Shown here: piece by piece, positions 1,145 to 50,400 of the stretch | How the letters are laid out: every line of letters begins with the position of its first letter | Position numbering within the stretch: position 1 is the stretch's first letter | DNA from: Bradyrhizobium xenonodulans | GTDB taxonomy: Bacteria; Pseudomonadota; Alphaproteobacteria; Rhizobiales; Xanthobacteraceae | Length of the DNA stretch: 64,000 nucleotides | Reading direction: 5' to 3' | Assembly: GCF_027594865.1 (NCBI RefSeq) | Contig: NZ_CP089391.1 | Location: 7,346,501-7,410,500 of the forward strand | The notes under the pieces: model-generated | What the model was told of the DNA's origin: nothing | Databases searched by the model: none | What the model saw: only the letters and a program-made list of their open reading frames with translations | Position numbers and translations under genes: made by a program

Positions 1145-2908
1145 CTACAGGCTGAGGTCGCGCTTCCGGCCGAAGCTCCATTCGATCCCGCCGCCCTCCT
1201 TCGTGGTGCCGGCAACGTGCTGGCCCAACCTTTTCTCAAGCTCGCGCGACCAGGGCACCAGCTGAAATCCGAGCCCGTCGTCGATCATGGCGAAACGCCC
1301 CGAGGCGAGCGTCAACCGCTGACGATACGTGCCCGCTACGTGCTCGCCCGAGGCGCCCTTCACGTGAGGCAGGCCGGTCTGCGCCGAGATTCTTGCCGCC
1401 ACCTCGTCCAGCTCGCGTCGGCGCAACGTGTTCAGGAGATCACGCTGGAATGTGATGCGCTGGCCCTGCCGTCGCGCCAGACCTTCCCGAACCAGATGCT
1501 CTGTGCGAGCTTCGAGAGCGTCGCGCGTCTGGCGACCGAAGCCGCCCATGGCGAGCGGCATGGGGTTGGATTCAACCAGCCGGTGGTCGAGCCAGGTGGC
1601 GCCTTTCGCGGCGACCTGCTCGCCAAGATCGAGATCAGAACGGGCCGCAAGGACCAATGTCGGGCGCGGATCATCGGCCGGACCGAAGCGCCGGACCTCG
1701 ACCATACCGCCGACGGATGGCGCATGTTCGAAAGCTTCGATTCCTCGGAACCGGACGTGGTGCGCGCGCCCGTCTGTTCCGTCGATCAGGGCGTAGGCCT
1801 CGCCGGTGAGCTCGTCATGCAATCCATGATCGACCAGTCGTCCGATAATCTGGGAGCTTGGCTGTCCACCTTCGATGACGTAGTCGGACACGCCACGCGC
1901 TTCCCCACGCTCGCTGAAGGCGCGATGCATGGTCTTGATGATGTCGCCGCGCATGCCGAGGTCGCGGAGATTACGTTCAGCCTCGAGCCCGACCATCCAC
2001 TCCCCTGGCGCAGCTGACGCAGCAAGGCCCATCTTCTCCAGGTGCTGAAGGCGGCCGACCATCAGGCGCCGGATTTCGGGATCGGAGCTGCCGGGATTGT
2101 CGGGGCGAAGATCGATATAGCCGGTTTCGTCGGCGACCTGCCAGATCTCCCGGTCGAGCCGCGTCCATCGCTCTGCCGTGACTTCTCTCTCCAGCGCATT
2201 GCGGATTTCATGCTCAGGTCTTGGACCCAGTTCGATGCCGACCAACTCCTCGGCGCGTGAGCGCAGGCCGCGGCTGACGTAGTCGCGGGAGATCACGAGG
2301 TCTGCGCCTGTCTCATCGACTCCCCGAACGAGAAGATGGATGTGAGGGTTGTCCGTATTCCAGTGATCGACGGCCACCCATTCGAGCTGCGTTCCGAGAT
2401 CGATCTCCATCTGCTTGGCCAGATCACGGGTGAAGGCCTTGAGGTCAGTCATGTCGGCGGCATCCTCGGGCGAGACAATGAATCGAAAATGATGGCGGTC
2501 GCCCTCGCAGCGTTCTGCGAAGGCCGCACCGTCAGCTCGATCGCTGCCAGCATCAAACATCTCGGCCCGCTCGCCGTTCCGGGTTACTCCGTCGCGCTTG
2601 AGGTATGAAAGATGAGCCGTCAGCGGCGCCGAGCGGAACGAACGTCCCTTGTGACGCACGATGCGCGCCTTCACCACAACGCGCCGCGTCGGACTGAACA
2701 ACCGGCTGCGACCAAAGGACAGCCGGCCGCGGCCAAACGTCGAGCGCCCATAGGCCGCAGAACGCCTGCCAAACCTGCCCTGACCCGACGTGTGTCCGGC
2801 TTTCTTCGCGGCACGTAGCACCTGGTTGATGAAGCTCTTCGGCTTGGGCGCGCGGGTGCTGCGGATGCGCCCGGGCCGAATGCGCAGATCGCTGTCACGC
2901 AGGGTCAT
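1145..2908 (-). CDS. DUF3363 relaxase/mobilization nuclease (VirD2/TraI-like)
   Basis: Predicted 587-aa relaxase that nicks oriT and leads the strand into the recipient. The N-terminus is very basic (RAPKPKSFINQVLRAAKKAG, then repeated Gly/Arg/Phe). The metal-binding three-histidine region is visible as DHWNTDNPHIHLLVRG. The long C-terminal half matches the DUF3363 type (e.g. GGFGRQTRDALEARTEHLVREGLA). The ATG at 2908 is preferred because the upstream gene's stop overlaps it in an ATGA arrangement (2905-2908). It lies directly upstream of traG. Assignment by motif and gene order is strong. Confidence 0.92.
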   Translation of the reverse strand: MTLRDSDLRIRPGRIRSTRAPKPKSFINQVLRAAKKAGHTSGQGRFGRRSAAYGRSTFGRGRLSFGRSRLFSPTRRVVVKARIVRHKGRSFRSAPLTAHLSYLKRDGVTRNGERAEMFDAGSDRADGAAFAERCEGDRHHFRFIVSPEDAADMTDLKAFTRDLAKQMEIDLGTQLEWVAVDHWNTDNPHIHLLVRGVDETGADLVISRDYVSRGLRSRAEELVGIELGPRPEHEIRNALEREVTAERWTRLDREIWQVADETGYIDLRPDNPGSSDPEIRRLMVGRLQHLEKMGLAASAAPGEWMVGLEAERNLRDLGMRGDIIKTMHRAFSERGEARGVSDYVIEGGQPSSQIIGRLVDHGLHDELTGEAYALIDGTDGRAHHVRFRGIEAFEHAPSVGGMVEVRRFGPADDPRPTLVLAARSDLDLGEQVAAKGATWLDHRLVESNPMPLAMGGFGRQTRDALEARTEHLVREGLARRQGQRITFQRDLLNTLRRRELDEVAARISAQTGLPHVKGASGEHVAGTYRQRLTLASGRFAMIDDGLGFQLVPWSRELEKRLGQHVAGTTKEGGGIEWSFGRKRDLSL

Positions 2909-3378
2909 TGCCGGACCTCGAAAGGCGCCAAGGCAGCTACAGTGCCGAAAATCTGCTTGATTGCGCTGTTCAAAATGTACGGCGCGGCACGCGCCCCGAC
3001 CGACCGGCACGCCAGAACCCAAGCCATGTCAATGGCTTGCGGTTCGACCGGCGAGCCCCTTTTATCTCGCCGTCTTAATCGGTCGTGTCGTCTCTCTCGT
3101 CTCAGCCATTCTCGCTTCCTTTCTCGTTTGCGACAAGCCGCTCTGATCCACGCCATGACACGATGCGCCGCAATGGTCATGAGTCCTGATGCGCCGTGCA
3201 GTCTTCCGCGCTCATCGACGGCACAAGGTCGCTGCAGCAAGGCAGCGCGGACGCCGTCGCGGCGCATCTTTCCATCGGGATGACGGAGCCACATCACAGG
3301 CAATCCGGCGCGATCGGCCATCCGAAGATGCACCGTCGCAGGCAAGATAACGTGCGTTCCGTCGTCGTTGTGCTGCAC
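2905..3378 (-). CDS. Hypothetical protein, translationally coupled to the relaxase
   Basis: A 157-aa frame with a GTG start whose TGA overlaps the relaxase ATG by 4 bp, which argues that it is genuinely translated. An internal ATG would start a 92-aa version at MTIAAHRVMAWIRAAC. The middle is strongly basic (RKRERKREWLRRERRHDRLRRRDKR) and the C-terminus mildly hydrophobic. I do not recognise a family. The adjacent IS110 element begins just upstream, so the protein may be the 3' remnant of a longer gene that the insertion split from the frame starting at 5268. Confidence 0.5.
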   Translation of the reverse strand: MQHNDDGTHVILPATVHLRMADRAGLPVMWLRHPDGKMRRDGVRAALLQRPCAVDERGRLHGASGLMTIAAHRVMAWIRAACRKRERKREWLRRERRHDRLRRRDKRGSPVEPQAIDMAWVLACRSVGARAAPYILNSAIKQIFGTVAALAPFEVRQ

Positions 3379-37867: not shown

Positions 37868-38920
37868 TCACACCGTTCCGGCATCAGCGAACAGCATAAA
37901 CCGAACGACATCCTGCGGCGCGAGTTGGATGCGCAGCGCCGCCCGCAGGGCGCCGACGCCGAATGCATGCAGGTCTTCGTTGAAGTCGCCCGTCCGCGGA
38001 GACAGGACAAGCGCCTCAATGCCCGCGGCTTCGGCGCATTGGGTCAATGCCGCGACCGCCGTGTCACCCGCGGCATCGGCGTCGCGGGCGACGTAGAGCC
38101 GACGCAACGTCGGCGGCAGCAGAAGGGCGGCAAGATGGTTGGCTGAGAGCGCGGCGGCCATCGGCATGGCGGGCAGCGCACAGCGCAGCGACAGCATCGT
38201 CTCGATACCTTCACCGGCAGCGAGGACGTCGTCGGTCGCGCCAAAGCGGACGGCATGGCCGAGGAGACCGCCCATGGCCCGTCGCGGCGTGTCGACCGGC
38301 GCCTTGTGAGAGCCGTCCGGCGCGAGCCAGGTGCGATGTGCGCCGGTGATGCGATCCGCAAGATCGGTCACGGCGGCGATCATCGCCGGCCAAGTCTCAG
38401 TCGGCGAACCGTCGTCCGGGCGATAGTAGCTGCGCGGATGAAACCGCAGCGCGCCCGCAGCGTGCACAGGCTTGATGCCGCGATGGCCGAGGTAAGTCTC
38501 GACGAGCGTGCGACGGATCGGCTGCGACATGGCGAAGAGCCGCCGTGCCGCCTCCGCCGATCCGGCGGGGACGGGTGTGCGAACCGGCTTTGGGCTGCGG
38601 CGCGGTTCAGCGGGCGGCAGACTCAGAAAGCGTCGTGCCTCCCCGGCGACATCGCGAAAATCGACGAAACCGCAGCTCTCGCGGATCACGTCGAGGAGAT
38701 CGCCATGTTCGCCCGAGGCAGCATCTCGCCAATGCCCGGCGGCGCCGGGACCGGAGTCCGGTCCGCTGAGCCGGACGAACATCGAGCGGCCGGGCGTATT
38801 GCGGACGTCGCCGACGATCCAATAGCGGCCCTGGCGCCGTCCATTGGACAGGTAATGGCGGCAGACCGCCTCGGCATCACGGGCGAGCCGGCGCGCCAGC
38901 TCAGAAGCGTCGCGGGACAT
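37868..38920 (-). CDS. Toprim domain protein, primase-like (DUF7146)
   Basis: A 350-aa protein typical of plasmid and ICE replication modules. The N-terminal part (REAEAVCRHYL-type region, GDVRNTPGRSMFVRLSGP) resembles a primase zinc/DNA-binding module. VETYLGHRGIKP, ALRFHPRSYYRP and TWLAPDGSHKAPVDTPRRAMGGLLG follow. The Toprim core is VLAAGEGIETMLSLRCALP with YVARDADAAGDTAVA. The ATG at 38920 overlaps the stop of the preceding frame (TGATG). Confidence 0.85.
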   Translation of the reverse strand: MSRDASELARRLARDAEAVCRHYLSNGRRQGRYWIVGDVRNTPGRSMFVRLSGPDSGPGAAGHWRDAASGEHGDLLDVIRESCGFVDFRDVAGEARRFLSLPPAEPRRSPKPVRTPVPAGSAEAARRLFAMSQPIRRTLVETYLGHRGIKPVHAAGALRFHPRSYYRPDDGSPTETWPAMIAAVTDLADRITGAHRTWLAPDGSHKAPVDTPRRAMGGLLGHAVRFGATDDVLAAGEGIETMLSLRCALPAMPMAAALSANHLAALLLPPTLRRLYVARDADAAGDTAVAALTQCAEAAGIEALVLSPRTGDFNEDLHAFGVGALRAALRIQLAPQDVVRFMLFADAGTV

Positions 38921-39222
38921 CACGCAACCTCCCGCACTGCGCTGGCAGTTGGTTGCGCAAGAGCTGTCAATCGTCTGTGAGACAGCACCCAGGCGCAAAC
39001 GCGCAAGCAAATCCGCCGCGCACCCTGTTCGGTCCACTTGCCGGACGGTCCTTTGTGCGAGCAGTGGCGCCGTACAAACAAGGAGCGGCCAGGCCGGTTG
39101 TGAACATAGCCCCGCAGCCAGCAGCCTCCCTCGCCCTTGCGGGTGGAGAGAAAGTGGCGGCACACAGCCTCGGCCTCACGCGCGAGGCGGCATGCCCGGT
39201 CGGAAGCATCGCGCCGCATCAT
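38920..39222 (-). CDS. Partial duplicate of the Toprim protein N-terminus
   Basis: A 100-aa frame whose first 60 residues resemble those of the next gene (RREDASDRACRLAREAEAVC-like, HFLSTRKGEGGCWL, HNRPGRSLFVR, GPSGKWT). The remainder (CLRVCAWVLSHRRLTALAQP) is unlike it. It overlaps the strawberry-notch stop (ATGA) and the Toprim start (TGATG), so it sits cleanly in the operon and may still be translated. Either a truncated tandem duplicate or a small DNA-binding protein derived from it. Confidence 0.6.
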   Translation of the reverse strand: MMRRDASDRACRLAREAEAVCRHFLSTRKGEGGCWLRGYVHNRPGRSLFVRRHCSHKGPSGKWTEQGARRICLRVCAWVLSHRRLTALAQPTASAVREVA

Positions 39223-42200
39223 GCGGCCTCGCGTTCGCAGATGCGCTCGACCGGGTAGCTTTCGAGCACCTTGCCAAGCACGACGGCCCCGCTTGCATCG
39301 GTGGGCACGAACATGCGCAGCTTCCAGGAGATGATCTCACTGAACAGTCCATAGGTCCGCAAGCGGTCGCGCATGGTGTCGTTGAAGTCCGCGAGCTCAA
39401 TGCGATGCGCACCCATGACGCGGACGCGCCGCAGTGTCAGGCCCTCGGCGAGCTCGACGAACGCGCGGCCGTCGCGCAAGGCGGCGAAGACGTCCTCGGG
39501 CTCGAGTATCGGTCGCTCACCCGAAAGCGCGTTGGCGACCCAGGCGGACGAGACCTTCCGCCCAATGATCCGCTCGCCGGCGTCGGTCTGGAGGCGGTAG
39601 ACGCGGGTCGATTCCTTCGGCAGCCGTTTCCAGATCGGCAGGAGCAGCCCGGCGACGACGTGGATCGTGCTCTCGGTGAACTCTGGCACGTCTTTGAGCT
39701 CAGCTGTCCAGGCTGCACTGAAGTGCTCACGGTCTGTCTCGATCCAATGACTTTCGGCCATGGCCTTGGATGGGACATTGTGGCTTTCCATGGGCCGGAC
39801 CAATTTGACGCGCTGCTCGATTTCGCCGTCGTCCAGCATCAGGCTTGGAGCCGGGACTTGCACCGCCGCGCGGCCGGAACGTTCGTTCACCAGCAGGACT
39901 GCGCGGCGATCCGGCAGAAGGCCGAGGGCATCATCCAGAGTGAGCGGCCGGTTGCGTTCGCGCTGGATGATCGTCAGAAGCCGTGTCTCGGCGCTGGTCG
40001 CAGGATGGGTGTAGATGGTGCGCCGATGCGTGACGACGAAGCTTTCGGCGCGAAGGGTCTCGAGGCCCGCATCATAGATTCCGGAGGCGATTGCGCCTTC
40101 GATCCGCGCCGTCAGCAACTGCTCGAAGGCGGTGAACAGCACGTTTTGCAGCTCGATGGTCAGCGCCAGCAGACGGTTGAGAAAGGTCGTGATCGGCGGC
40201 AGGTCATCCGTGATGCCATTGGAGTCGACGAGCTTCAGCCCGGTCGCATTCTCGAACATCTCAAGAGAGCAACCATCCACCTTGCCGCGAACCAGGAGCA
40301 GGTAGAGTTGGCGCAGAGCATCACGGCCGTAGATGCTTTCGAGATTATCCTTGGGCCGAAACAGCCCCTGCCCCCCGGTCTGACGCTGACCGCGGGTGAT
40401 GGCGCCGAGCGTGTCGAGGCGGCGCGCAATCGTGCTGAGAAAGCGCTTCTCGGCCTTCACGTCGGTCGCAATCGGACGAAACAGCGGCGGCTGCGCCTGA
40501 TTGGTCCGGTTGGTCCGGCCGAGCCCCTGGATTGCTGCATCGGCCTTCCAACCGGGTTCGAGCAGGTAGTGCACCCGCAGACGGCGATTCCGCGCCGACA
40601 GTTCGGCGTGGTAACTGCGACCCGTGCCGCCGGCATCCGAGAAAACGAGGATGCGCTTGAGGTCGTCCATGAAGGCTGCGGTTTCGGCGAGGTTCGCCGA
40701 ACCGGCGCGGTTCTCGACCATCAGGCGGTCATGTTTCCGGATGATCCGGCGTGAGCGCCCGGTGACTTCGGCGACCCTATCGGTGCCGAAGCGCTGGACG
40801 ATCTGGTCGAGGGCGCCGGGCACGGGCGCGAGCGAGGCAAGCTTCTCGATCAGCCGGTCGCGACGCGCAACCGCATCCCGGCTCTCGACGGGCTGACCAT
40901 CACGGTACACAGGCCGGGAGGAGAGGTCGGAGTCGGTGAAAGGCTCGTAAAGCTGGACCGGGAAAGAATGAGCGAGATAGTCGAGCACATATTCGCGCGG
41001 TGTGATGTCGACCTGCACATCACCCCATTCCTCGGTCGGGATTTCCGCGAGCCGGCGCTCCATCAGCGCTTCGCCGGTCGAGACGATCTGGATGACCGCG
41101 GCATGCCCCTGCCCGAGATCGCGCTCGATGGCGCAGATCAAGGAAGGCGTCTTCATCGACGTCAGCAAATGGCCGAAGAAGCGCTGCTTTGCGGATTCGA
41201 AGGCCGACCGGGCCGCCGACTTCGCCTGGGCGTTCAAGGTCCCGGTCTCGCCGGTGATGTTGGCCGCTCGCATCGCGGCATCGAGATTGTTGTGAATGAT
41301 GCTGAACGCGGCCGCATAGGCGTCATAGATGCGGATCTGTTCGGGGGTGAGCTCATGCTCGATCAGTTCATATTCGACGCCTTCATAGGAAAGGGAACGG
41401 GCCGCATACAGACCGAGCGCCTTGAGATCGCGTGCCAGCACCTCCATCGCCGCAACACCGCCCGCCTCGATCGCCTCGACGAACTCGGCGCGCGTGGCGA
41501 ACGGAAAGTCCTCGCCGCCCCACAAGCCGAGCCGCTGGGCATAAGCGAGGTTGTGAACGGTCGTGGCGCCGGTCGCGGAAACGTAGACCACTCGTGCATT
41601 GGGCAGGGCGTGCTGCAGCCGCAGACCTGCGCGTCCCTGCTGCGAGGCGGCCTGCTCGCCGCGCTCCCCCTTGCCGCCCACGGCGTTCTGCATGGCGTGG
41701 CTCTCGTCGAAAACAACCACTCCGTCGAAATGGGAGCCCAACCATTCGACGATCTGCCGGACACGCGAAAGCTTTTCGCCGCGCTCATCGCTGCGCAGCG
41801 TAGCGTAGGTGGTAAATAGGATGCCTTCCGACAGCCGGATCGGGGTGCCCTGGCGGAAGCGTGAGAGCGGCGTGACCAGGAGCCGCTCCATGCCGAGCGC
41901 CGACCAGTCACGCTGTGCGTCCTCGATCAGCTTGTCGCTCTTGGAGATCCAAACCGCCCGGCGCCGGCCCTTCAGCCAGTTATCGAGCAGGATGCCGGCG
42001 ACCTGCCGGCCCTTGCCCGCGCCGGTGCCGTCGCCCAGAAACCAGCCGCGGCGGAAGCGGACGGCATGTGGAGCGTCGTCGCGCGCAGCAGCCACACCGT
42101 CAAAGGTCGCATCGACCGTCCAGGCGCCGGCAAGGAAGGCCGAATGTGCTTCGCCGGCGTAGACCACGCTTTCAAGCTGGGCGTCCGACAACAGGCCGTC

Positions 42201-43508
42201 GATAGCGAGGTTGACCGGAAGATGGGGCCGGTATGACGGCTTCGGCGGGGCAACCGAGGCCATCGCGGCCGACTGCACCAGTTTGGTCGGATGCGGCTGC
42301 GATCGGTGAATGCGGATCGATTGCAAGGTGTAGTCCTCATAGAGCGCATCGGTCAGATGAGCTCCGTCCGGAGGGGTCCAGTCGACCGTCTGGTAGGTCA
42401 GCTCTACGCTGTCCGGTTCGCCGAGCCGCTGACCGGGCGAGGAACGCATCGTGAAGGCGGGAGCGGATCGCCGAACCGGCACGGTCGAGCTGACCGGAGC
42501 CAGAACAGATGAAGTGATCGGAAGCCGCGGCGGCACATGTTCGAGGACCCATGCCAGCAGCGTGGCTACGTCCGGCGCCACGCCTGGAGATGCTGGAAAG
42601 ACGCTTCTGTCCGGCGCAGGCTGCTTGTCGATGACGGTGAGCCGCGTATCGATCGCCGTCCCGTGCCTGGCAAAAACCGCCCCTGCAATCGCAGCCGAGA
42701 ATACCACGCGGCCGCGCTCCTGGAGACGGATGAAGGCGTCGGTCCAGCTTGGATTGTCGGGGGCGAGACTTGCGCCGGTCACCGCCACGAGGCGACCGCC
42801 GTCGCGAAGCCTGGCCAATGCCGAGGAGAGATGGCGCAGTGCTGCGTCCGCCATCCGCCGATCCACATTGGGCAGAGCCGAAAATGGCGGATTCATCAGC
42901 ACGACGCTCGGGGCAACAGCCGCCTCGAGATGATCGTCGATCTGCGCCGCGTCGTAGCGCGTGACGGTCACGTTGGGAAACAACAGATCGAGCAGCCCGG
43001 CGCGCGTTTCGGCGAGCTCGTTCAGCGCAAGTGTGCCGCCGGAGATCTGAGCGAGGATGGCGAGAAGTCCGGTGCCCGCCGAGGGCTCCAGCACGAGATC
43101 TGTGGTGGTGATGCCGGCGGCGGTGCAGGCGACAAAGCCAAGCGGAATCGGCGTCGAGAATTGCTGAAACGCCTCGCTTTCTTCCGACCTGCGCGTATGG
43201 GTTGGAAGCAGGCCTGCGACCTTGGCCAGCATCGAGAGTTGCGCTGCCGGCGATCCCGCCTTGGTCCGCATGGCGGCGCCATGCTTGCGCAGGAAAAGAA
43301 CGGTTGCCGCCTCACAGGCTTCATAGGCGGCCTTCCAATGCCAGGCGCCGGCGGCATCCGAGCCACCGAAGGCGCTTTCCATGGCGGAACGCAGAACACT
43401 TGCTGCATCGATTCGCCGGCCATGTTCGAGGTCACAGAGGATAAGCCGCGCGGCTTGGGCGATAGAGGACGCAGCCGCGGCGGTCGCGGAGCAGGACAGA
43501 TTGATCAT
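39219..43508 (-). CDS. Strawberry-notch-type helicase with N-terminal methyltransferase domain
   Basis: A 1429-aa protein common on alphaproteobacterial plasmids and ICEs. Residues about 130-260 form a class I methyltransferase-like domain (LVLEPSAGTGLLAILAQISG; VVLMNPPFSALP, the NPPF motif of N6-adenine methylases). The strawberry-notch helicase follows: Walker A GDGTGAGKGRQVAG, DESH box VVVFDESHAMQNA, then VYVSATGATT and a C-terminal helicase half (LEPGWKADAAIQGLGRTNRT). Role in element maintenance is unknown; antirestriction by self-methylation is one idea. Confidence 0.9.
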   Translation of the reverse strand: MINLSCSATAAAASSIAQAARLILCDLEHGRRIDAASVLRSAMESAFGGSDAAGAWHWKAAYEACEAATVLFLRKHGAAMRTKAGSPAAQLSMLAKVAGLLPTHTRRSEESEAFQQFSTPIPLGFVACTAAGITTTDLVLEPSAGTGLLAILAQISGGTLALNELAETRAGLLDLLFPNVTVTRYDAAQIDDHLEAAVAPSVVLMNPPFSALPNVDRRMADAALRHLSSALARLRDGGRLVAVTGASLAPDNPSWTDAFIRLQERGRVVFSAAIAGAVFARHGTAIDTRLTVIDKQPAPDRSVFPASPGVAPDVATLLAWVLEHVPPRLPITSSVLAPVSSTVPVRRSAPAFTMRSSPGQRLGEPDSVELTYQTVDWTPPDGAHLTDALYEDYTLQSIRIHRSQPHPTKLVQSAAMASVAPPKPSYRPHLPVNLAIDGLLSDAQLESVVYAGEAHSAFLAGAWTVDATFDGVAAARDDAPHAVRFRRGWFLGDGTGAGKGRQVAGILLDNWLKGRRRAVWISKSDKLIEDAQRDWSALGMERLLVTPLSRFRQGTPIRLSEGILFTTYATLRSDERGEKLSRVRQIVEWLGSHFDGVVVFDESHAMQNAVGGKGERGEQAASQQGRAGLRLQHALPNARVVYVSATGATTVHNLAYAQRLGLWGGEDFPFATRAEFVEAIEAGGVAAMEVLARDLKALGLYAARSLSYEGVEYELIEHELTPEQIRIYDAYAAAFSIIHNNLDAAMRAANITGETGTLNAQAKSAARSAFESAKQRFFGHLLTSMKTPSLICAIERDLGQGHAAVIQIVSTGEALMERRLAEIPTEEWGDVQVDITPREYVLDYLAHSFPVQLYEPFTDSDLSSRPVYRDGQPVESRDAVARRDRLIEKLASLAPVPGALDQIVQRFGTDRVAEVTGRSRRIIRKHDRLMVENRAGSANLAETAAFMDDLKRILVFSDAGGTGRSYHAELSARNRRLRVHYLLEPGWKADAAIQGLGRTNRTNQAQPPLFRPIATDVKAEKRFLSTIARRLDTLGAITRGQRQTGGQGLFRPKDNLESIYGRDALRQLYLLLVRGKVDGCSLEMFENATGLKLVDSNGITDDLPPITTFLNRLLALTIELQNVLFTAFEQLLTARIEGAIASGIYDAGLETLRAESFVVTHRRTIYTHPATSAETRLLTIIQRERNRPLTLDDALGLLPDRRAVLLVNERSGRAAVQVPAPSLMLDDGEIEQRVKLVRPMESHNVPSKAMAESHWIETDREHFSAAWTAELKDVPEFTESTIHVVAGLLLPIWKRLPKESTRVYRLQTDAGERIIGRKVSSAWVANALSGERPILEPEDVFAALRDGRAFVELAEGLTLRRVRVMGAHRIELADFNDTMRDRLRTYGLFSEIISWKLRMFVPTDASGAVVLGKVLESYPVERICEREAA

Positions 43509-43531
43509 GGGGGTTGAGCTTTCGAGGAGAG

Positions 43532-43589
43532 CGGGAACGGTTCAAGCCGACGGGCGCTCTCTCGACCCGACCGGCTCAAACCTGTCCCG
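43532..43589 (-). promoter_or_regulatory. Foldable leader (family 1) of the strawberry-notch gene
   Basis: On the minus strand, CGGGA, GGTTTGAGCCG and CGGG pair with CCCG, CGGCTTGAACC and TCCCG around the loop TCGAGAGAGCG. Several pairs are G-U at RNA level. It lies 24 nt before the ATG. The two parB leaders and the ardC leader share the stem end ACGGG/CCCG and the CGAGAGAG loop. Confidence 0.6.
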
Positions 43590-43769
43590 GCCGATCTCTC
43601 ACTCTGCTCACCCCTTGCCGCCACCGCACGGGGGAGGACGCGGCTACGCCGCGCGCAAGGCTTGGGGCGCAGCAGCCGCATTCCAAACCGAGCAGCCCGG
43701 CACGATGCCGGGCTTCGGAAGCAACTTCGAAGGAAGCGCACGGCGGGATTGCCGTGCCACTCCGGCCAC

Positions 43770-45881
43770 TCATTCGGCGGCAATGCCGTGTGGCTGAACG
43801 TCGTCTGCGGTCTCGCGACCCTCCTCATCGCCGACGAGGAACTCGGGAAGCGGGCCCGCGTCTGCGTCTTGGTCTGCCGATTGGATAGCGTCAGTGAGGC
43901 GCAGTGACTCCGGCAGCCATCCCGTGCCGTCAAGAAGGCGTTCGGCTTCGCTGGCCATATCGGCCTTCTTGAGATGGTCGATCAGCTCTGCGGATGCTTC
44001 GCCCTTGGCTTGCCTCACCGCCTCCAGAATACGTGGCTTGGGGACGCGGCCGAGATAATTATCGACGGTCGGCCTCCAGCCGGCCTGCACCATGTCGAGC
44101 CCGACCGCCCGCGCCAGAACGTCGGCCTGGCCGAGCCTGCGCGCGAGCCCATCAACCGATACCCGCCCCTGGGCGTAGCGATTCACGGGTTCATAGAGGG
44201 CATTGACCGAGAACGACGCACAATGGGCGAACAGGGCTGCTTGCGCATGGCCGTCCAATGCCGTGAGCGTATCCCAAAGCTCCTTCGCATCGTTCGGGAG
44301 CCGCGCTTTCCAGGCTTCGTGCCTGGTATCGATCGCCTTGGCCGGCGCGCTGTCCTTCAATCCCGGAGCCTGCGCCGGAAATGTCGGCGTGTGCACCGCG
44401 ATCTCGAGGCAACTGGCGGACGCTGCGAACCTGTAGAAGGTTGCCAGCACGAAACTGTGCAGCACCGCTAGGAACGTGATCGAGGGATGCTCGGCAAGCG
44501 CGTCGCGCAACGCCAGCGTTCGATAGGCCGTCAGCTCGGTGATCAGACGGTCCGGCAGCGGTCTTGCAGCATCGTCCTCATCCTCTTCGGCCGGCTCGGT
44601 TGGTGCGCCACCGACGGTGATGGCGGTACGCTGCACCGGACCGACGGCATTCTCGCCCTCAATCGTTGTGCTGCCCTGTCGGGGCTCAGTATCGACGACC
44701 GCCTGTTCATCCTCCGGCCGGACGTAGCCGCGATCCACCGAGAGCTGTCCCTCGGAATCGATGCTGATGAAGACTCCGCCGCGGGCGATGTCGGCCGGAT
44801 CGTAGATCATTGGCCGCTCCTCGAACGCGAGCAATGCCGCCTCGATCTCCCCAAGGCGGAGGTCAATCTCCTCGGGGAGTTCGTCAGCATCCTGGTACTC
44901 GGCTTCGAGCCTGTCACGCTCGGCATTGAGTGCATCGATCGTGCCCTGCTCCTCGATGCTGAGCGAGGCCGGCGTTCCCTCCAATTCCCGCAAGCCGCTG
45001 CTGTGGCCAAATGGAAAATCGACTGCCACCGAGATCCACTTCCACCCTTCGGCCGCGATCACCTCGGCGTCCTGCTTGAGCTTCTCCATGACAAGACGGT
45101 CGAGCAGTGCCACGTCCTGGAGCCAGCCACCGTCGTCATGCTCGAACAGATCATGCAGAACCGGACCTCCGGCGCGCTCGTAGGCGTCGATGCCGACATA
45201 CTGCGCACGGCGATCGGACCCACGTACGGTGTTCTCGGTCAACATGCGGCGGATCTGGTACGGCTCGTCATAGCCGGACCGGCTGACATTGTCCCAGACC
45301 TGCTCCTGGCGCGCATGATCGCCGCTCACCGAGAACGCCACGAGCTGCTCCAGCGTCATGCCGTCGTCGGCATAGACCTCATGCAGCTTCGGCGAGACCG
45401 ACGCCAGGCGCAGGCGCTGCTTGACGATTGCCACCGCCACGAAATGCCGCGCGGCAATGTCCTCTTCGCTCATGCCGAGGTCGCGGAGCGTCCGGAATGC
45501 GCGAAACTGATCGAGCGGATGCAGGCCGACGCGCTCATCGTTCTCTGCGATCGAATCGTCTTCCGCAATGCCTCCCTCGCGAACAACGCAGGGCACGGCT
45601 TGCGTCTTGGACATACGCTTCTGCTTGACCAGGAGCTCGAGAGCACGGTAGCGCCTGCCGCCGGCCGGCACCTCGAACATGCCTGTCTCGTTGCCCTCGG
45701 AATCGACGATGGCGCGGACATTGAGACTTTGTAGAAGCGTCCGCTGGGCGATGCTCTCCGCAAGCTGCTCAATCGAGACACCCGCCTTGACGCGCCGAAC
45801 GTTGGACTGGCTCAGCACCAGCTTGTTGAAGGGAATGTCACGCGAAGGCGACAGCGTGATCTTTTGGACTGGCTTTGTCAT
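43770..45881 (-). CDS. parB: ParB/RepB/Spo0J family partition protein
   Basis: A 703-aa ParB-like protein. N-terminal ParB domain: LSQSNVRRVKAGVSIEQLAE, IAQRTLLQSLNVR, FEVPAGGRRYRALELL. The HTH region is LDQFRAFRTLRDLGMSEEDIAARHFVAVAIVKQRLRLASVSPKLHE. The long C-terminal half is unlike chromosomal ParB and typical of the plasmid/ICE variety found next to strawberry-notch genes. The ATG at 45881 is fixed by GGAG at 9-12 nt upstream, which overlaps the 3' arm of a leader stem. No parA is present in the window. Confidence 0.9.
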   Translation of the reverse strand: MTKPVQKITLSPSRDIPFNKLVLSQSNVRRVKAGVSIEQLAESIAQRTLLQSLNVRAIVDSEGNETGMFEVPAGGRRYRALELLVKQKRMSKTQAVPCVVREGGIAEDDSIAENDERVGLHPLDQFRAFRTLRDLGMSEEDIAARHFVAVAIVKQRLRLASVSPKLHEVYADDGMTLEQLVAFSVSGDHARQEQVWDNVSRSGYDEPYQIRRMLTENTVRGSDRRAQYVGIDAYERAGGPVLHDLFEHDDGGWLQDVALLDRLVMEKLKQDAEVIAAEGWKWISVAVDFPFGHSSGLRELEGTPASLSIEEQGTIDALNAERDRLEAEYQDADELPEEIDLRLGEIEAALLAFEERPMIYDPADIARGGVFISIDSEGQLSVDRGYVRPEDEQAVVDTEPRQGSTTIEGENAVGPVQRTAITVGGAPTEPAEEDEDDAARPLPDRLITELTAYRTLALRDALAEHPSITFLAVLHSFVLATFYRFAASASCLEIAVHTPTFPAQAPGLKDSAPAKAIDTRHEAWKARLPNDAKELWDTLTALDGHAQAALFAHCASFSVNALYEPVNRYAQGRVSVDGLARRLGQADVLARAVGLDMVQAGWRPTVDNYLGRVPKPRILEAVRQAKGEASAELIDHLKKADMASEAERLLDGTGWLPESLRLTDAIQSADQDADAGPLPEFLVGDEEGRETADDVQPHGIAAE

Positions 45882-45890
45882 TTCGGTTCT

Positions 45891-45939
45891 CCACAACGAG
45901 CAGCCGAAAGCCTCTCTCTCGACTTCCAACCCGTCGTGG
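45891..45939 (-). promoter_or_regulatory. Foldable leader (family 1) of parB
   Basis: On the minus strand CCACGACGGG (45939-45930) pairs with CTCGTTGTGG (45900-45891) through eight Watson-Crick and two G-U pairs. The loop contains TCGAGAGAGAGGCTTTCGG. The 3' arm runs straight into the GTGGAG ribosome-binding site. The near-identical leader at 48873 has perfect pairing. Confidence 0.65.
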
Positions 45940-46224
45940 CACTCCATGCTGCCCTCTTCCTCTCTCTCTTGCGGTTTGAATCCCGCTGCTGCGGCACCGG
46001 GCGTGCATTGGCCGAAACGGCCGCAGCGCCTGGCAGGAACCAAGGTGTGAGCTGCTGTCAGTTTCTGTCCCACTCGGCGGCCTTCAGCGTGGCGACCTCA
46101 CGGCGGTCGACCTGATCCGCACTGCTATGCTAGGCGGAGCGTCTAGAGCCTTTTCCATTCCGATGGAATCGGAGCGGGTTCTAAATTGCCGGAATTACTC
46201 CGCAACAGGGTCACGGCGTCGACC
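45940..46224. other. Intergenic region upstream of the parB leader
   Basis: About 285 bp with no gene seen; should contain the parB promoter and the 3' end of the di-iron protein transcript. Confidence 0.4.
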
Positions 46225-46968
46225 TCAATTTGGGCGATGGCTCCATCTGTCTCGCTCTATGGCCGGGAGAGGCTTTTCGACATTTCTCAGGATCGCGACG
46301 CGGCATTTGTCGAGCAATTCCTTCGTGTATACGACGCCGAAATAGTCCAGCAGGAAGGTGCCAGCATAGCTCAGATCGTCAATGCCGCTGACTATCCTAT
46401 TGAGCATTGCACCAATTTCTCCAACGCGGTCGCGATAGCGTGCGCGGATCACGTTAACGGCGTTCATCGAGTGAACCGCCTCGTCGGCAATCACCTCTCG
46501 CAGCCAATGATGGAAGATGTCGTTGCGAAGTTCGGTATAGAACGGCTTCTCGGCGGCATAGGCGTGGCAAGTGCACATCTCATCAAATGCGATCATAACC
46601 ATCACAGAAAATTCGTCGGCGAGGTGGTCATTGATCGCACCGAAATCATGCGGTCGAGCCTCCAACCTCTCTCGGAGGTTCCTCTCGGATCCATTGGCGA
46701 CAAGTTCAATGATGCGGATAAAGCCATCGGTGTGACGCTCTTCGTCTGCGGCCCAGACAGTAAAAAAAGCCCGAGCTTCATCGGTAGTGATCAGATTGCG
46801 GACGGATAGCTCGGTTTTCAAATGCCTGGCGTCATATTCCGTGTACAGGTCAGGCCACAATTTATTCCAACGTGCGCGCACAACCGACGGTTCGGCGCTG
46901 AACATCGCCGGCGTAAGAGCATTGAACATTTCTTTTGGACTCCAGTTCCGTCGAACCGGCGTAATCAT
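46225..46968 (-). CDS. Ferritin-like di-iron protein (acyl-ACP desaturase/AurF-like)
   Basis: A 247-aa all-helical protein with the spacing of carboxylate-bridged di-iron enzymes. DEERH at 75-79, DEMCTCH at 129-135 and DEAVH at 162-166 supply Glu/Asp and His ligands on three helices. Helices are separated as in stearoyl-ACP desaturase-like and N-oxygenase-like proteins. The ATG at 46968 is taken because the sequence before it looks non-coding. The substrate is unknown. It stands alone among element-maintenance genes and looks like cargo. Confidence 0.65.
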   Translation of the reverse strand: MITPVRRNWSPKEMFNALTPAMFSAEPSVVRARWNKLWPDLYTEYDARHLKTELSVRNLITTDEARAFFTVWAADEERHTDGFIRIIELVANGSERNLRERLEARPHDFGAINDHLADEFSVMVMIAFDEMCTCHAYAAEKPFYTELRNDIFHHWLREVIADEAVHSMNAVNVIRARYRDRVGEIGAMLNRIVSGIDDLSYAGTFLLDYFGVVYTKELLDKCRVAILRNVEKPLPAIERDRWSHRPN

Positions 46969-47993
46969 CCGACTGCTCCTGAGCGTGAGCGCTGCGAGCG
47001 GCTCTGGTGGACGGATTGTCCCTTTCAAACATTGGCAAAGAAGTTTGCCACACACAAAACATGCCGTCGCCTCTCTGTTTTGGTGGGGTACAATTCCGGA
47101 CGCTGCACCTTTCGGCTTGGCCTGACCTGTTGTCTTGAACGGTCCAGTGCGGAATCTTCGGGGGCGCCGCCGAGCCAACAATGCTCGCGATTCCGGGAAG
47201 TTTTGGGGATGACTTCATAAGCTCAGGCTGTCAGGCCTCAGGTCGTGGACCATTTCTATGAGGCGGGTTGATCACACTCGGAATCGCACGCACTGCTGAC
47301 GGGACATGGCGAGGTCATGATCGCGCCGCGTACCATGGGTGCTCCACCAATGGCGTGGATCTGCGCTCCAACCGGGCTCTACGTCACCCAGTCCGACAGC
47401 GGCCAGGTGTGGGGCTTCGCGATCAAAGGCGTCGAGCCCAGCGATGCCAAGCCGGTCAGGACCTTCGAGCGGCCTACTCACTAAGGTCACCAGCAGGCTA
47501 TTCGTCGCGCATCTCAAGACGTCCGATCGCCATCATGACGATTCCAGCCGCAGCTGCCTTTTTTGGTTCTGGTGTGGTTCATATAGAGATCATGAATCGC
47601 GCGCTGAACCCATGCGGCCGGCTCCCTTAGCAAACCCCACCTACGAGGTTGTGACGTCGGAATAGCCTTCACAACCACTTGCGCTCGCTTGCGATAGGCT
47701 GTTGTTGTCGCCAGCGCGACCGCGAACCCGCGGCAAGCGTCGGGAGCCGCGGCATGGCCATGAAGTCTCTTGAGTACGGATGCCCGGATCATGCGCTGCC
47801 TATGCCCAAAATTGCGCTCTTAAGCGTCGACCATTGGATGGAGATTGCAACTTCGAGCACCTTGCAATTCTGGTTGGAGTACATCGCGAGCAATGCGATG
47901 GCTTCGCAATGATAATGACTCTAGTTGTAAAAGGCAGCGCCAGATAAATTCCAATATTAGAAGGTACCTTTCACCTTGCTTTTGCATCAGGCG
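46969..47993. other. No intact gene; possible coding relic near 47260-47483
   Basis: About 1 kb without a supported gene. The plus strand at 47313-47483 reads GEVMIAPRTMGAPPMAWICA, PTGLYVTQSDSGQVWGFAIK, GVEPSDAKPVRTFERPTH in one frame, which looks coding but has no good start and matches no family I know. Confidence 0.4.
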
Positions 47994-48347
47994 ATGAGCT
48001 CAATATTGAAAATTGTGGCGGTGGGGGCGATTTTCTTTGGAGAAGCCCTTTCGATAGTCGCCGAGTTGATTGCCTCAAAGCAGTTTGGGAAAGCTGGCGG
48101 GCATTTCACAACGCTCCTGCCGATGTTCCTGTTGATATCGGCGGGCGGTATCCTGCTCGTCTGCGGATACGCACTCGGCTACATGTATCTCAAGAATATC
48201 TGGATCATCGTCGCAGTATCGGTGGGAGCAATTCTAGTTGTGGAACCGATTCTGGCGCTTCTGCTCTTTCGAGACGTGCCGACAGCCGGTTCGCTGATCG
48301 GGCTGGTGTTCGGCGCGCTTGGCACGCTAGCTGCGATAATTTTCTGA
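47994..48347 (+). CDS. Small four-helix membrane protein, SMR/EamA-like
   Basis: A 117-aa protein (123 from an earlier start at 47976) with four hydrophobic segments: ILKIVAVGAIFFGEALSIVA, LLPMFLLISAGGILLVCGYA, IWIIVAVSVGAILVVEPILA and SLIGLVFGALGTLAAIIF. The layout is like half an EamA transporter or an SMR protein, with a Glu in helix 1. No strong ribosome-binding site. Substrate unknown. Confidence 0.6.
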   Translation: MSSILKIVAVGAIFFGEALSIVAELIASKQFGKAGGHFTTLLPMFLLISAGGILLVCGYALGYMYLKNIWIIVAVSVGAILVVEPILALLLFRDVPTAGSLIGLVFGALGTLAAIIF

Positions 48348-48452
48348 GACGCGTTCAGCTCTTTGCTCAGACCCCAGGTATGCATACGACGAAGACTGCC
48401 TGATTGACGCGGGCGCGCGGGCGCGGCGGGCTATGGTGCGGGTTGTCACGCC

Positions 48453-48863
48453 TCACCGATATCGCGCTGGGTGGATAATTGAAAGATTCTCGGTCAGCGT
48501 GCGGCGGATCTGGTACGGCTCATCAGAGCCGGACCGGCCGATATTGTCGCAGACCTGCTCCAGGCGCGCGTGATCGCCGCTCACCGAGAACGACATGCGG
48601 TTCTGCCGGACCAGGAGCTCGAGAGCACGGTAACGCCTGCCGCCGGCCGGCACCTCGAACATGCCTGTCTCGTTGCCCGCGGCATCCACGATGGCGCGGA
48701 CATTGAGACTTTGCAAAAGCGTTCGGTGGGCGATGCTCTCGGCAAGCTGCTCGATTGAGACGCCCGCCTTGACGCGCCGAACGTTGGACTGGCTCAGCAC
48801 CAGCTTGTTAAAGGGAATGTCACGCGAGGGCGACAGCGTGATCTTTTGGACTGCCTTGGTCAT
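48453..48863 (-). pseudogene. Truncated parB copy with an internal deletion
   Basis: The first about 88 codons are almost identical to parB (MTKAVQKITLSPSRDIPFNK to LELLVRQNRMS). The frame then jumps to FSVSGDHARLEQVCDNIGRS and ends soon after RRTLTENLS. The lost part includes most of the HTH domain. Its 5' leader is preserved better than that of the intact gene. It lies directly downstream of ardC on the same strand. Confidence 0.85.
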
Positions 48864-48872
48864 TTTTTGTCT

Positions 48873-48921
48873 CCACGACGGGCGGCCGAAAGCCTCTCTC
48901 TCGACTTCCAACCCGTCGTGG
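48873..48921 (-). promoter_or_regulatory. Foldable leader (family 1) of the truncated parB copy
   Basis: A perfect 10-bp inverted repeat CCACGACGGG/CCCGTCGTGG, 49 nt in total like that of parB, with loop TCGAGAGAGAGGCTTTCGG. The ribosome-binding site GTGGAG overlaps the 3' arm. Confidence 0.7.
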
Positions 48922-48965
48922 CGCTCGGCGGCACCCTCTTCCTCTGTTTGGCAGCTCAACTCCGC

Positions 48966-49925
48966 TCACGCCGCCTCCTGATCTGCCGCGGCACAATCGG
49001 CCGAAGCGGTTGGACTATCTGCTGGCAGGAAGCCAAGCAGATAATCCGCGGCTTTGCTCGCCTGTGAGGCCGCCCGCACGATCGCACGGTTGTCTTCACG
49101 CAGGACTTCCAGCCAGGAACCGATATAGTCGGCGTGCCGCACGGTCGGCACGATGCCGAGTGAAGCGCAGGAAAATGCTGCGCACAATTCGGCGATCAAT
49201 TCCTCGAACGCGTATTTTTTTGTGCCGTAGGAACCGCCGAGATCGCGGTTGAGGCGCGAAGGATGACCGCTGGCGTGGCCGAGCTCATGCAGCGCGGTCC
49301 GGTGCCAATTGATCGGTTCGAAATAAGCCGCCGGCGGCGGCACCTGCACGTAATCTTCTGCCGGCATATAGAAGGCGCGATTGCCGCCGATGCGGAAGTC
49401 GATGCCGGTTGCCTTAATCAGGGACTCGACCTGCGGCTCGATCATGCCCGGCGGCGGCATTGGCGCGGTGGCCGCGATGTCGGCGGACAGTCCGTCGCAT
49501 TGATCGGTGTTGAAGACGGTGAACCGCTTCAGGAATGGAACGGCCTGCGCCTCTTCGCCTGTCTCACGCGCACGGCGCCGTTCGTCGGCCGGCACGAAGC
49601 GGTCGGCATAGACCACGGCAATGCCGCGCTCGCCCTTGCGGACATGACCGCCGAGCGCAAGCGCCTGGCGGAAGGTCAGCCAGCTTTGGCCGGCAAAACC
49701 GCGCTCGATCACCGCCCCCCAGAGGATGAGAACGTTGATGCCGCTGTAGGGCCGGGTCGTCGCTGCGTTCCTTGGCATCGACAGCGGCGCCTTTGCAGCC
49801 TCCGTCCCCCAGGGTTGAACCCACGGCACGCGGCCGGCCTCGAGCTCGGCGATGATCTTGTCGGTGATTTCGTCATAAAGGGTGGCCCGGTCCTGGCCGG
49901 TGCGCGTGCGAGGATGTCTGGACAT
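48966..49925 (-). CDS. ardC: ArdC-like antirestriction/zincin metallopeptidase
   Basis: A 319-aa protein. The N-terminal ssDNA-binding (DUF1738) domain has YDEITDKIIAELEAGRVPWV and SGINVLILWGAV. The C-terminal zincin-like peptidase domain carries HELGH at residues 213-217, and EELIAELCAAF downstream supplies the third ligand. ArdC protects incoming plasmid DNA from restriction. It is the first gene of the minus-strand maintenance cluster and has a family 1 leader. Confidence 0.92.
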   Translation of the reverse strand: MSRHPRTRTGQDRATLYDEITDKIIAELEAGRVPWVQPWGTEAAKAPLSMPRNAATTRPYSGINVLILWGAVIERGFAGQSWLTFRQALALGGHVRKGERGIAVVYADRFVPADERRRARETGEEAQAVPFLKRFTVFNTDQCDGLSADIAATAPMPPPGMIEPQVESLIKATGIDFRIGGNRAFYMPAEDYVQVPPPAAYFEPINWHRTALHELGHASGHPSRLNRDLGGSYGTKKYAFEELIAELCAAFSCASLGIVPTVRHADYIGSWLEVLREDNRAIVRAASQASKAADYLLGFLPADSPTASADCAAADQEAA

Positions 49926-49936
49926 CGCGGATCTTT

Positions 49937-49981
49937 CGCGACGGGCGCTGCAAGCCTCTCTCGCAGCTCCAACCCGTCGCG
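49937..49981 (-). promoter_or_regulatory. Foldable leader (family 1) of ardC
   Basis: A perfect 9-bp inverted repeat, CGCGACGGG with CCCGTCGCG on the minus strand, encloses a nested GCTGC/GCAGC pair and the CGAGAGAGGCTT loop. It lies 11 nt before the ardC ATG. Confidence 0.7.
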
Positions 49982-50217
49982 GCCGAACCCGGCCAGCCCT
50001 CTCACTCTCAATGCTTGTTGCAGACGCGTTATGTCTGTTGCAGGAGCAACGTGCCGGTGCCAGATCCTCAGCTGAGCGCCGGCCTTCGCGTCAGGGATGG
50101 ACGCCCGAATGGGTGAAAACCCGGCCAAAGCCGGGGTTTCAGCGCAGCCGACAGCCCGGTCCCCGCAGGGAGACGCACGGCAAATCCAATGCGGATGGAA
50201 CGACCAGGCGCCTGGAC

Positions 50218-50400
50218 CTAGACCTCTTCTCGAATCTTTGTCTGCGCGTCATAGATTCTGATTCGAAGCATGGGAAAGCGCTTCTTCAGCTCTTCGGCAC
50301 CCGTTTTGGCTCCGTCCCTGGTCGCAAATTCGGCCTTGAGTCGGCCATCTACTTCGAGCGCATATCCTGAAGCTGGCAATTCACGGGCAGCTGCAACCAT
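50218..50400 (-). CDS. Small hypothetical protein
   Basis: A 60-residue protein from the ATG at 50400: MVAAARELPASGYALEVDGR, LKAEFATRDGAKTGAEELKK, RFPMLRIRIYDAQTKIREEV. It looks like a small alpha/beta fold, and similar small proteins are frequent in Bradyrhizobium. An in-frame start at 50442 would add 14 residues. Function unknown. Confidence 0.6.
   Translation of the reverse strand: MVAAARELPASGYALEVDGRLKAEFATRDGAKTGAEELKKRFPMLRIRIYDAQTKIREEV

Follow-up and report, generated by a model that had tools for sequence, protein, structure and literature searches.

A covarying leader RNA family in front of parB-like, ardC and DUF932 genes of alphaproteobacterial conjugative elements

Background

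Several genes on the minus strand of a 64,000-nucleotide stretch of the Bradyrhizobium xenonodulans genome (this whole stretch is called the window in the following) are preceded by an inverted repeat that ends close to their start codon, which raises the questions whether this repeat acts as DNA or as RNA, how widely it occurs and what it does for the genes behind it. A preliminary description of the window had distinguished four such leaders, in front of two parB genes, ardC and a gene for a strawberry-notch-type helicase (sno), and had assigned one architecture to all of them: a stem ending in ACGGG/CCCG, a loop with the purine-rich octamer CGAGAGAG, and an ATG 9 to 24 nt past the 3' arm. 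Our analysis yields a real and widespread family of leader RNAs without a match in Rfam, tied to a module of establishment genes; its RNA nature is well supported, and the regulatory mechanism that we propose for it is a committed guess.

The leaders of the window and their genes

The genes and leaders at issue are collected in Table 1. The shortened parB2 lies behind ardC, and some 2.5 kb of other DNA (45960-48450) separates it from the full-length parB1; as both parB copies carry an intact leader, the module was apparently divided at this site by an inserted or duplicated segment. Between the two copies the minus strand holds a 247-aa ORF (46225-46968) without Pfam match, in which the motifs DEERH and DEAVH, spotted by eye, recall a ferritin-like di-iron protein. 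The relaxase gene presumably belongs to the same element as the leaders.

Table 1. Leaders and associated genes in the window (SD, Shine-Dalgarno sequence; R1, covariance model described in the text)
Feature	Positions	Strand	Remarks
relaxase (VirD2-like, DUF3363)	1145..3022	-	same strand as the leaders
toprim/DUF7146 gene, same module	37868..39163	-	no R1 match in front
sno, strawberry-notch-type helicase	39219..43508	-	PF13872, PF13871
sno leader, diverged	43509..43608	-	box 43605-43596; hairpin about 43589-43532; z -3.7; homologous leaders
parB1, large ParB-like protein, 703 aa	43770..45881	-	PF02195 just under curated cut-off; relatives
parB1 leader	45885..45967	-	R1 80.2 bits (training sequence of the model)
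parB1 leader, parts		-	purine box 45963-45953; 5' arm 45939-45930; 3' arm 45900-45891; SD GGAG
parB1 leader, top		-	inner stem 45923-45916 with 45910-45903; loop AGAGG 45915-45911
parB2, shortened parB remnant with intact leader	48453..48863	-	residues 1-91 93% identical to parB1
parB2 leader	48867..48949	-	R1 80.9 bits (training sequence)
parB2 leader, parts		-	box 48945-48935; arms 48921-48912 and 48882-48873
ardC (ArdC-N and zincin-like metallopeptidase)	48966..49925	-	Pfam PF08401, PF18818
ardC leader	49930..50012	-	R1 73.9 bits (training sequence)
ardC leader, parts		-	box 50009-49999; arms 49981-49973 and 49945-49937

The common architecture holds for the leaders of parB1, parB2 and ardC (74-81 bits with R1) but not for that of sno, which reads GGGACAGG...CCGTTCCC, lacks the ACGGG/CCCG stem and is matched by R1 only weakly (21.3 bits at 43539-43609, E 0.003 for 1.64 Mb). 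Most of the octamer pairs within the inner stem, and AGAGK is what remains as the loop. By itself CGAGAGAG is not significant (7 occurrences in the window versus 4.1 expected, with 9 of 100 shuffles reaching 7); the combination ACGGGTT-N5-12-GAGAGAGG occurs only three times in the 8.28-Mb genome, at the ardC leader and the two parB leaders, and its reverse is absent from that genome.

As read from the sequence, the outer stem of the parB1 leader joins CCACGACGGG to CTCGTTGTGG by ten pairs, two of which are G.U, while in the parB2 leader the same 5' arm joins CCCGTCGTGG by ten Watson-Crick pairs, and in the ardC leader CGCGACGGG is opposed to CCCGTCGCG; the earlier observation that all ten pairs are kept in both parB leaders despite their different 3' arms is thereby borne out. 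The distances between 3' arm and ATG likewise agree with those given before: 9 nt (parB1), 9 nt (parB2), 11 nt (ardC) and 24 nt (sno). All four leaders fold more stably than shuffled sequences (z -3.7 for sno, -4.4 for parB1, -3.6 for parB2 and -3.7 for ardC), the number of shuffles out of 200 that fold as well being 0, 0, 0 and 1, respectively. The SD region of the ardC leader in the window reads GAAAG instead of GGAG.

Elsewhere in the same genome we found two broken copies of the leader (C1:7092725-7092804 and 7093629-7093704, loci L091 and L092; 39.5 and 36.6 bits), the 3' parts of which are damaged and which are probably remnants of another such element.

A two-tier hairpin selected on the coding strand

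The complete element spans about 83 nt and consists of a purine box (GAGAGNRAGAG), a linker, a two-tier hairpin, the SD and the ATG. The box, a conserved feature that the preliminary description had not included, was measured in 120 copies, and in 113 of them it is 17-21 nt away from the GACGGG that follows. From base to tip the hairpin comprises about ten outer pairs, the internal loop UUGRA, about eight inner pairs and the apical loop AGAGK.

Covariation was analyzed in two alignments: A2, with 54 leaders from loci of ParB relatives (the best 80 of 260) and from plasmid regions, and A4, with 88 hairpins aligned by sequence (86 of the 96 listed plus the ardC and parB2 leaders of the window; ten were omitted by hand, including both broken L091 copies and L119, and matches below 30 bits had been excluded earlier). 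Within A4, pairing is seen in 96.1% of 1665 cells, compared with 35-46% when the structure is slid by 1-3 columns; the GGAG columns are more than 90% conserved. Changes on both sides of a pair occur at 15 of the 19 pairs and in 73 cells (21.8 in shuffles), and none of 500 shuffles reaches either count. The narrower A2 shows two-sided changes at 8 of 19 pairs, a number reached by 21 of 500 shuffles. Relatedness can inflate this shuffle test, least so where pairs and pair types are counted; these two numbers lie beyond all shuffles in A4 and are reached by 21 and 18 of 500 in A2. In L067 and L152 several neighbouring pairs are changed on both sides. The preliminary description had made the RNA reading depend on covariation in a larger alignment, and such covariation is present.

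The strand follows from the kind of pairs that are tolerated: the cells of 17 pairs comprise 1164 Watson-Crick, 272 G.U and 28 A.C combinations, and therefore the sense-strand RNA is the selected form. Moreover, the consensus has a folding energy of -26.6 kcal/mol when read as sense strand, versus 0.0 as antisense strand, and the unpaired positions of A4 are conserved on one strand only. The individual hairpins are very stable (z < -2 in 119 of 127 nonredundant hairpins, median z -4.6, median energy about -31 kcal/mol). Two other measures of strandedness were set aside. The sense-versus-antisense stability of single sequences is weak proof, as one shuffle of each shows the same bias (116/127 vs 125/127; medians -3.5 and -10.0), and the pair counts were used for that reason; a register-based count for the outer stem (137 G.T, 10 A.C) was noisy, with some copies misaligned by the pattern, and the 17-pair count was preferred. 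Neither a DNA palindrome nor a hairpin of the complementary single strand would be likely to produce this asymmetry of G.U over A.C and of folding. The element is a structured RNA leader on the sense strand, a statement that we make with high confidence, and the preference for an RNA leader family over a DNA palindrome is upheld by the covariation, the strand-specific G.U pairs, the fixed distance to the start and the mostly intercistronic position before parB.

Placement before the start codon and between cistrons

The position relative to the gene was determined for 258 nhmmer matches in 139 loci, of which 238 are distinct. An ATG start follows in 235 of these 238, and the chosen start lies 3-5 nt past the end of the model in 230 of 238, the script mildly preferring ATG and a distance of 3-5 nt when several starts compete. 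In the outer stem CC/UC is paired with the leading two G of the downstream GGAG, and only half of the SD is contained in the stem. The predicted mean probabilities of being unpaired are 0.07, 0.08, 0.32 and 0.28 along the SD of 109 leaders versus 0.24, 0.33, 0.45 and 0.36 in 50 control genes (those of 87 listed that have an SD-like 4-mer, with SD patterns defined differently in the two sets); the low values for the first two G corroborate the earlier claim that the 3' arm reaches into the ribosome-binding site. The start codon is no less open in the leaders than in the controls (0.44 in both). Two further roles were considered for the box. A switch in which it pairs with the inner 3' arm was rejected (no covariation; 66 of 200 permutations are as good). 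A standby site pairing with the anti-SD found no support, as the energy of -8.2 kcal/mol only slightly surpasses the -7.6 of shuffled boxes and falls short of the -9.8 reached by random purines.

Where ardC precedes parB, the element starts less than 60 nt past the ardC stop codon in 49 of 75 distinct pairs (median 24, range -82 to 4039), and thus most of these pairs offer hardly any space downstream of ardC in which a promoter could precede the box. The simplest reading is that the leader lies between two cistrons of one longer message; a promoter within ardC may still serve the parB leader. Behind DUF932 genes the spacing is looser (median 86 nt; less than 60 nt in 4 of 18). Between 43500 and 50400 of the window we found no sigma-70-like site, the one promoter type searched for, and three terminator-like matches, none of which lies at any of the four leaders; the leaders are not followed by a U-tract. 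Terminator-like by eye is a strong G+C-rich hairpin with a short T-run between parB and the toprim gene in two other loci (L087 14471-14590, L085 2981-3100).

Distribution of the family

The covariance model R1 was built from parB, ardC and DUF932 leaders, with the parB1, parB2 and ardC leaders of the window in the training set and the sno leader outside it. Its scan of the window gave four matches, none of which precedes the toprim/DUF7146 gene. The preliminary description had proposed a search with such a model, and R1 matches 31 of 385 alphaproteobacterial genomes (E <= 0.01, with stricter filters in this class scan by which weak matches are lost), or 27 of 385 without the four genomes that have borderline scores only (G092, G114, G210 and G364). 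In a draw from the whole phylum, 34 of 398 genomes are matched at E <= 0.001, all 34 from the class of the window (the share of other classes among the 398 is not given). Together with the plasmid-borne copies this adds hundreds of relatives to the leaders described before.

Blastn with the parB1 leader matched 46 plasmid records, and searches with two other leaders matched 103 and 142; matches that extend over 80% or more of the query number 95 and 106, respectively. The genera among the plasmid matches listed are, we assume, alphaproteobacterial; the leader-bearing plasmids include those of rhizobia, Methylocystis, sphingomonads and roseobacters. The 16 phage records that were recovered match only in part and none covers 80%. 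Among the matches listed for viral contigs (at least 120 stretches), three (L227, L310, L322) have full leaders and three more have weak ones. In these three IMG/VR contigs the leaders are followed by the starts of parB, ardC or DUF932, and the contigs are perhaps conjugative elements binned as viruses. The upstream regions of 14 diverged ParB genes contain no match to the leader (in L335 the contig ends within this region).

The suspicion that this is not a named RNA is in line with Rfam 15, which gives no match at the gathering threshold across the 64 kb; at E <= 10, six chance-level matches were obtained within 43400-50200, none of them on a leader. Among the papers listed by a literature search, which had most subscription journals outside its coverage, none seems to deal with this leader.

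Genes behind the leaders

The genes behind the 238 distinct leaders encode parB-like proteins (121), ArdC (85), DUF932 proteins (22) and others (10), ratios that are biased and represent no census because homology to ParB had guided the choice of many loci. When the list of ParB relatives was crossed with the class scan, a leader was found in 26 of 28 relatives that score at least 300 bits and have an intact N-terminus, the two leaderless ones being 47% and 43% identical; below 300 bits it was found in 2 of 16, one of which is the parB2 fragment of the window itself. ArdC is encoded in 44 of the 385 genomes, and leaders occur at ArdC in 11 of these 44 (12 loci). Most ArdC genes are therefore without leader, which ties the leader to one module (ardC or DUF932, parB, sno, toprim, DUF2493) and not to ArdC in general.

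Further small genes with a leader, without assigned function, occur in plasmids of roseobacter type and of sphingomonads. Of two plasmids inspected, one has no leader at its SSB gene and the second has none at toprim, DUF2493 and DUF2958; as these genes lack it, the regulon is partial. Plasmid pMLb of Mesorhizobium japonicum MAFF 303099 contains ardC and parB, with a large methyltransferase/helicase gene where sno would be expected. That the leader-bearing genes are establishment genes is plausible.

The leaders of sno genes

The sno leaders were treated separately. Out of 86 distinct upstream regions a loose filter removed four, three for lack of the box and one for lack of GCTCTC before the SD; 57 were left after removal of those more than 90% alike, and 49 of these 57 were aligned; since the filter loosely required box and GCTCTC, their presence in the retained leaders is partly the result of selection. 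The sno leaders share GCCGGGA-CGGG-like and GAGAGAGCG motifs, and have the box, GGGACRGG and GAGAGAG themes in common with the R1 family, while R1 itself detects some of them, weakly. Taken singly, sno leaders form stable folds, with a median of -42 kcal/mol and 31 of 49 at z < -2. The consensus of the 49-row alignment reaches only -3.5 kcal/mol, with sense equal to antisense, a poor value that is due to the raggedness of this alignment; 19 rows selected by hand give -17.5 kcal/mol, with the second half of the box paired to CTCTC. The sno leaders may represent a diverged branch, distantly related to the R1 family, with a shared theme and another stem.

Alternative explanations and known systems

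The leader could be an element of mRNA processing or stability, its hairpin being cut by an RNase or protected so that each cistron obtains a stable 5' end. This would suit its repetition directly before single cistrons within an apparent operon and the high stability of the hairpins, but it would need neither the tight and constant spacing of SD and ATG nor the pairing of the SD, and we consider it unlikely. The nearest published idea that we found, EGeRS1 of the Bacillus plasmid pLS20, suggests control of read-through instead, by pausing or termination within the leader. EGeRS1 is, as far as the available text of the report goes, a conserved sequence rich in inverted repeats that immediately precedes the ribosome-binding sites of ardC and four other establishment operons, which blocks read-through from an upstream promoter and in which no promoter was found in the one case tested (PMC8708921). 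The likeness in position is close, but EGeRS1 measures 420-751 bp, has multiple stems and occurs once per operon in Bacillus, whereas our element of about 83 nt has one main hairpin and occurs once per cistron in Alphaproteobacteria; its authors state, in the same available text, that they have no evidence for a dependence on ssDNA or RNA, by which description it is set apart from the leader (PMC8708921). With the four leaders outside the terminator-like matches of 43500-50400 and no U-tract behind them, read-through control appears quite improbable for our family. An origin in metabolite sensing or temperature sensing (a riboswitch or RNA thermometer) could explain the SD in a stem and the strongly conserved loop sequences; against both stands the missing Rfam match, against the former the genes without an evident common metabolite, and against the latter, as we infer, a median of about -31 kcal/mol, which is very stable, and we attach hardly any probability to either.

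The remaining alternatives place the signal in DNA. A hairpin in the transferred single strand, serving as an Frpo-like promoter or a priming site, would fit establishment-type genes on an element with a relaxase. Frpo promoters, in the portion of the source at hand, drive such genes in other plasmids, and Frpo/ssi hairpins lie, like the leader, upstream of leading-region and anti-defence genes of conjugative elements (PMC11541004). Yet Frpo/ssi carry -35/-10 sequences and fold in the transferred DNA strand (PMC11541004, same portion), while the leader is an RNA of the coding strand that abuts the SD: a single-strand promoter requires that the template strand be transferred and folded, whereas it is the coding strand that the G.U bias and the folding speak for; the hairpin reaches the SD, which leaves no space for -10/-35 plus an intact SD; and there is the lack of sigma-70-like sites in 43500-50400. 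We regard this as very improbable. A double-stranded operator palindrome for a repressor would account for an inverted repeat at several genes of one element. The EGeRS2/p576 repressor control resembles the leader in that an establishment regulon is recognised via a repeated upstream sequence; there, according to what is available of the report, a protein repressor acts on strong promoters (PMC8708921), whereas the leader is an RNA-level signal in a region, 43500-50400, without promoter-like site. The strand-asymmetric wobble (272 vs 28), the conservation of unpaired positions on one strand and, in 49 of 75 pairs, the scarce promoter space that separates the parB leader from ardC (a promoter inside ardC being possible) make such an operator very unlikely.

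The STAXI motif, finally, is another structured motif near antirestriction and ssDNA-binding genes, for which a function in ssDNA was considered by its authors; it consists, in the available part of its description, of repeated pseudoknots (PMC2864571), in contrast to the single two-tier hairpin with box described here, and the direct comparison consists of the Rfam scans only. Neither EGeRS1 nor Frpo, as far as they are described in the available parts of the sources, shares the features measured here (PMC8708921, PMC11541004).

A putative translational operator for establishment genes

The reading that we prefer is a translational operator for establishment cistrons, with a shared putative trans factor and timing after conjugation; to this mechanism as a whole we give an even chance. 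Ribosomal-protein mRNA leaders and phage coat-protein operators are structured, touch the SD, are bound in trans and are mostly autogenous. The leader resembles these in its SD-touching structure, but it is common to unrelated proteins and its binder is putative. Features that it has in the manner of a translational operator are a stable stem with half of the SD in its base, conserved unpaired purines and an occurrence at unrelated cistrons of one module.

From the computed properties (family, structure, strand, position, gene set and distribution) we infer repression, a trans factor and timing after transfer as follows. The structured mRNA leader, which is repeated before single establishment cistrons on conjugative plasmids and ICEs of Alphaproteobacteria, would act in cis. 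Its basal stem, holding part of the SD, would keep initiation low by default; the conserved unpaired parts (box, internal loop and apical loop) would form the recognition site of a putative trans factor, by which the stem is either tightened or released and which may be a protein or an sRNA encoded by the element or by its host; and ArdC, ParB-like, DUF932, sno and some small proteins would be made together and briefly on entry into a new cell. Default repression with a common trans factor is the best account because unpaired letters are conserved and many genes share the leader. Counting against it are the half of the SD outside the stem, the start codon that is as open as in control genes, the ardC leader of the window without GGAG, the partial regulon, the majority of ArdC genes without leader, the looser spacing behind DUF932 and the two negative results on the box. 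The timing is proposed by analogy with R388 and pLS20: in R388 it is the recipient and not the donor that requires ArdC (PMC7213743), and establishment genes are thought to require fast and transient expression (PMC8708921), both according to the available text. A more specific version, in which a single RNA-binding factor would read box and hairpin at each cistron inside polycistronic messages, the genes being ON upon arrival in a factor-free cell and OFF later, is possible but on balance doubtful.

If true, this would be an RNA-level regulon of anti-restriction, ParB-like and helicase proteins, and a post-transcriptional counterpart of zygotic induction. The recipient timing of establishment genes is known for few elements (the single-stranded promoters of F-type plasmids, the repressor of p576), and the report on pLS20 states that for this plasmid it is unknown (PMC8708921). 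Here a compact and strongly covarying RNA, of a family without matching Rfam entry, marks the genes of a putative establishment regulon, and it can serve as a marker for further establishment genes without assigned function.

Further leader-like elements

A variant leader precedes a gene of about 172 codons in three plasmids, two from Rhodobacterales and one from Martelella (L343 15880-15959, L346 15105-15183, L347 14197-14275). The gene has no Pfam match in L343 and is annotated as RadC in L346 and as hypothetical elsewhere; it is a candidate establishment gene. On the minus strand of L114 (1944-2025) and L118 (1970-2043) we observed hairpins with a GACGGG/CCCGTC outer stem and another top, without GAGAGAG, which are followed by a small gene starting with MHDRDYSADIA and perhaps form a separate class of leader whose recognition loop differs.
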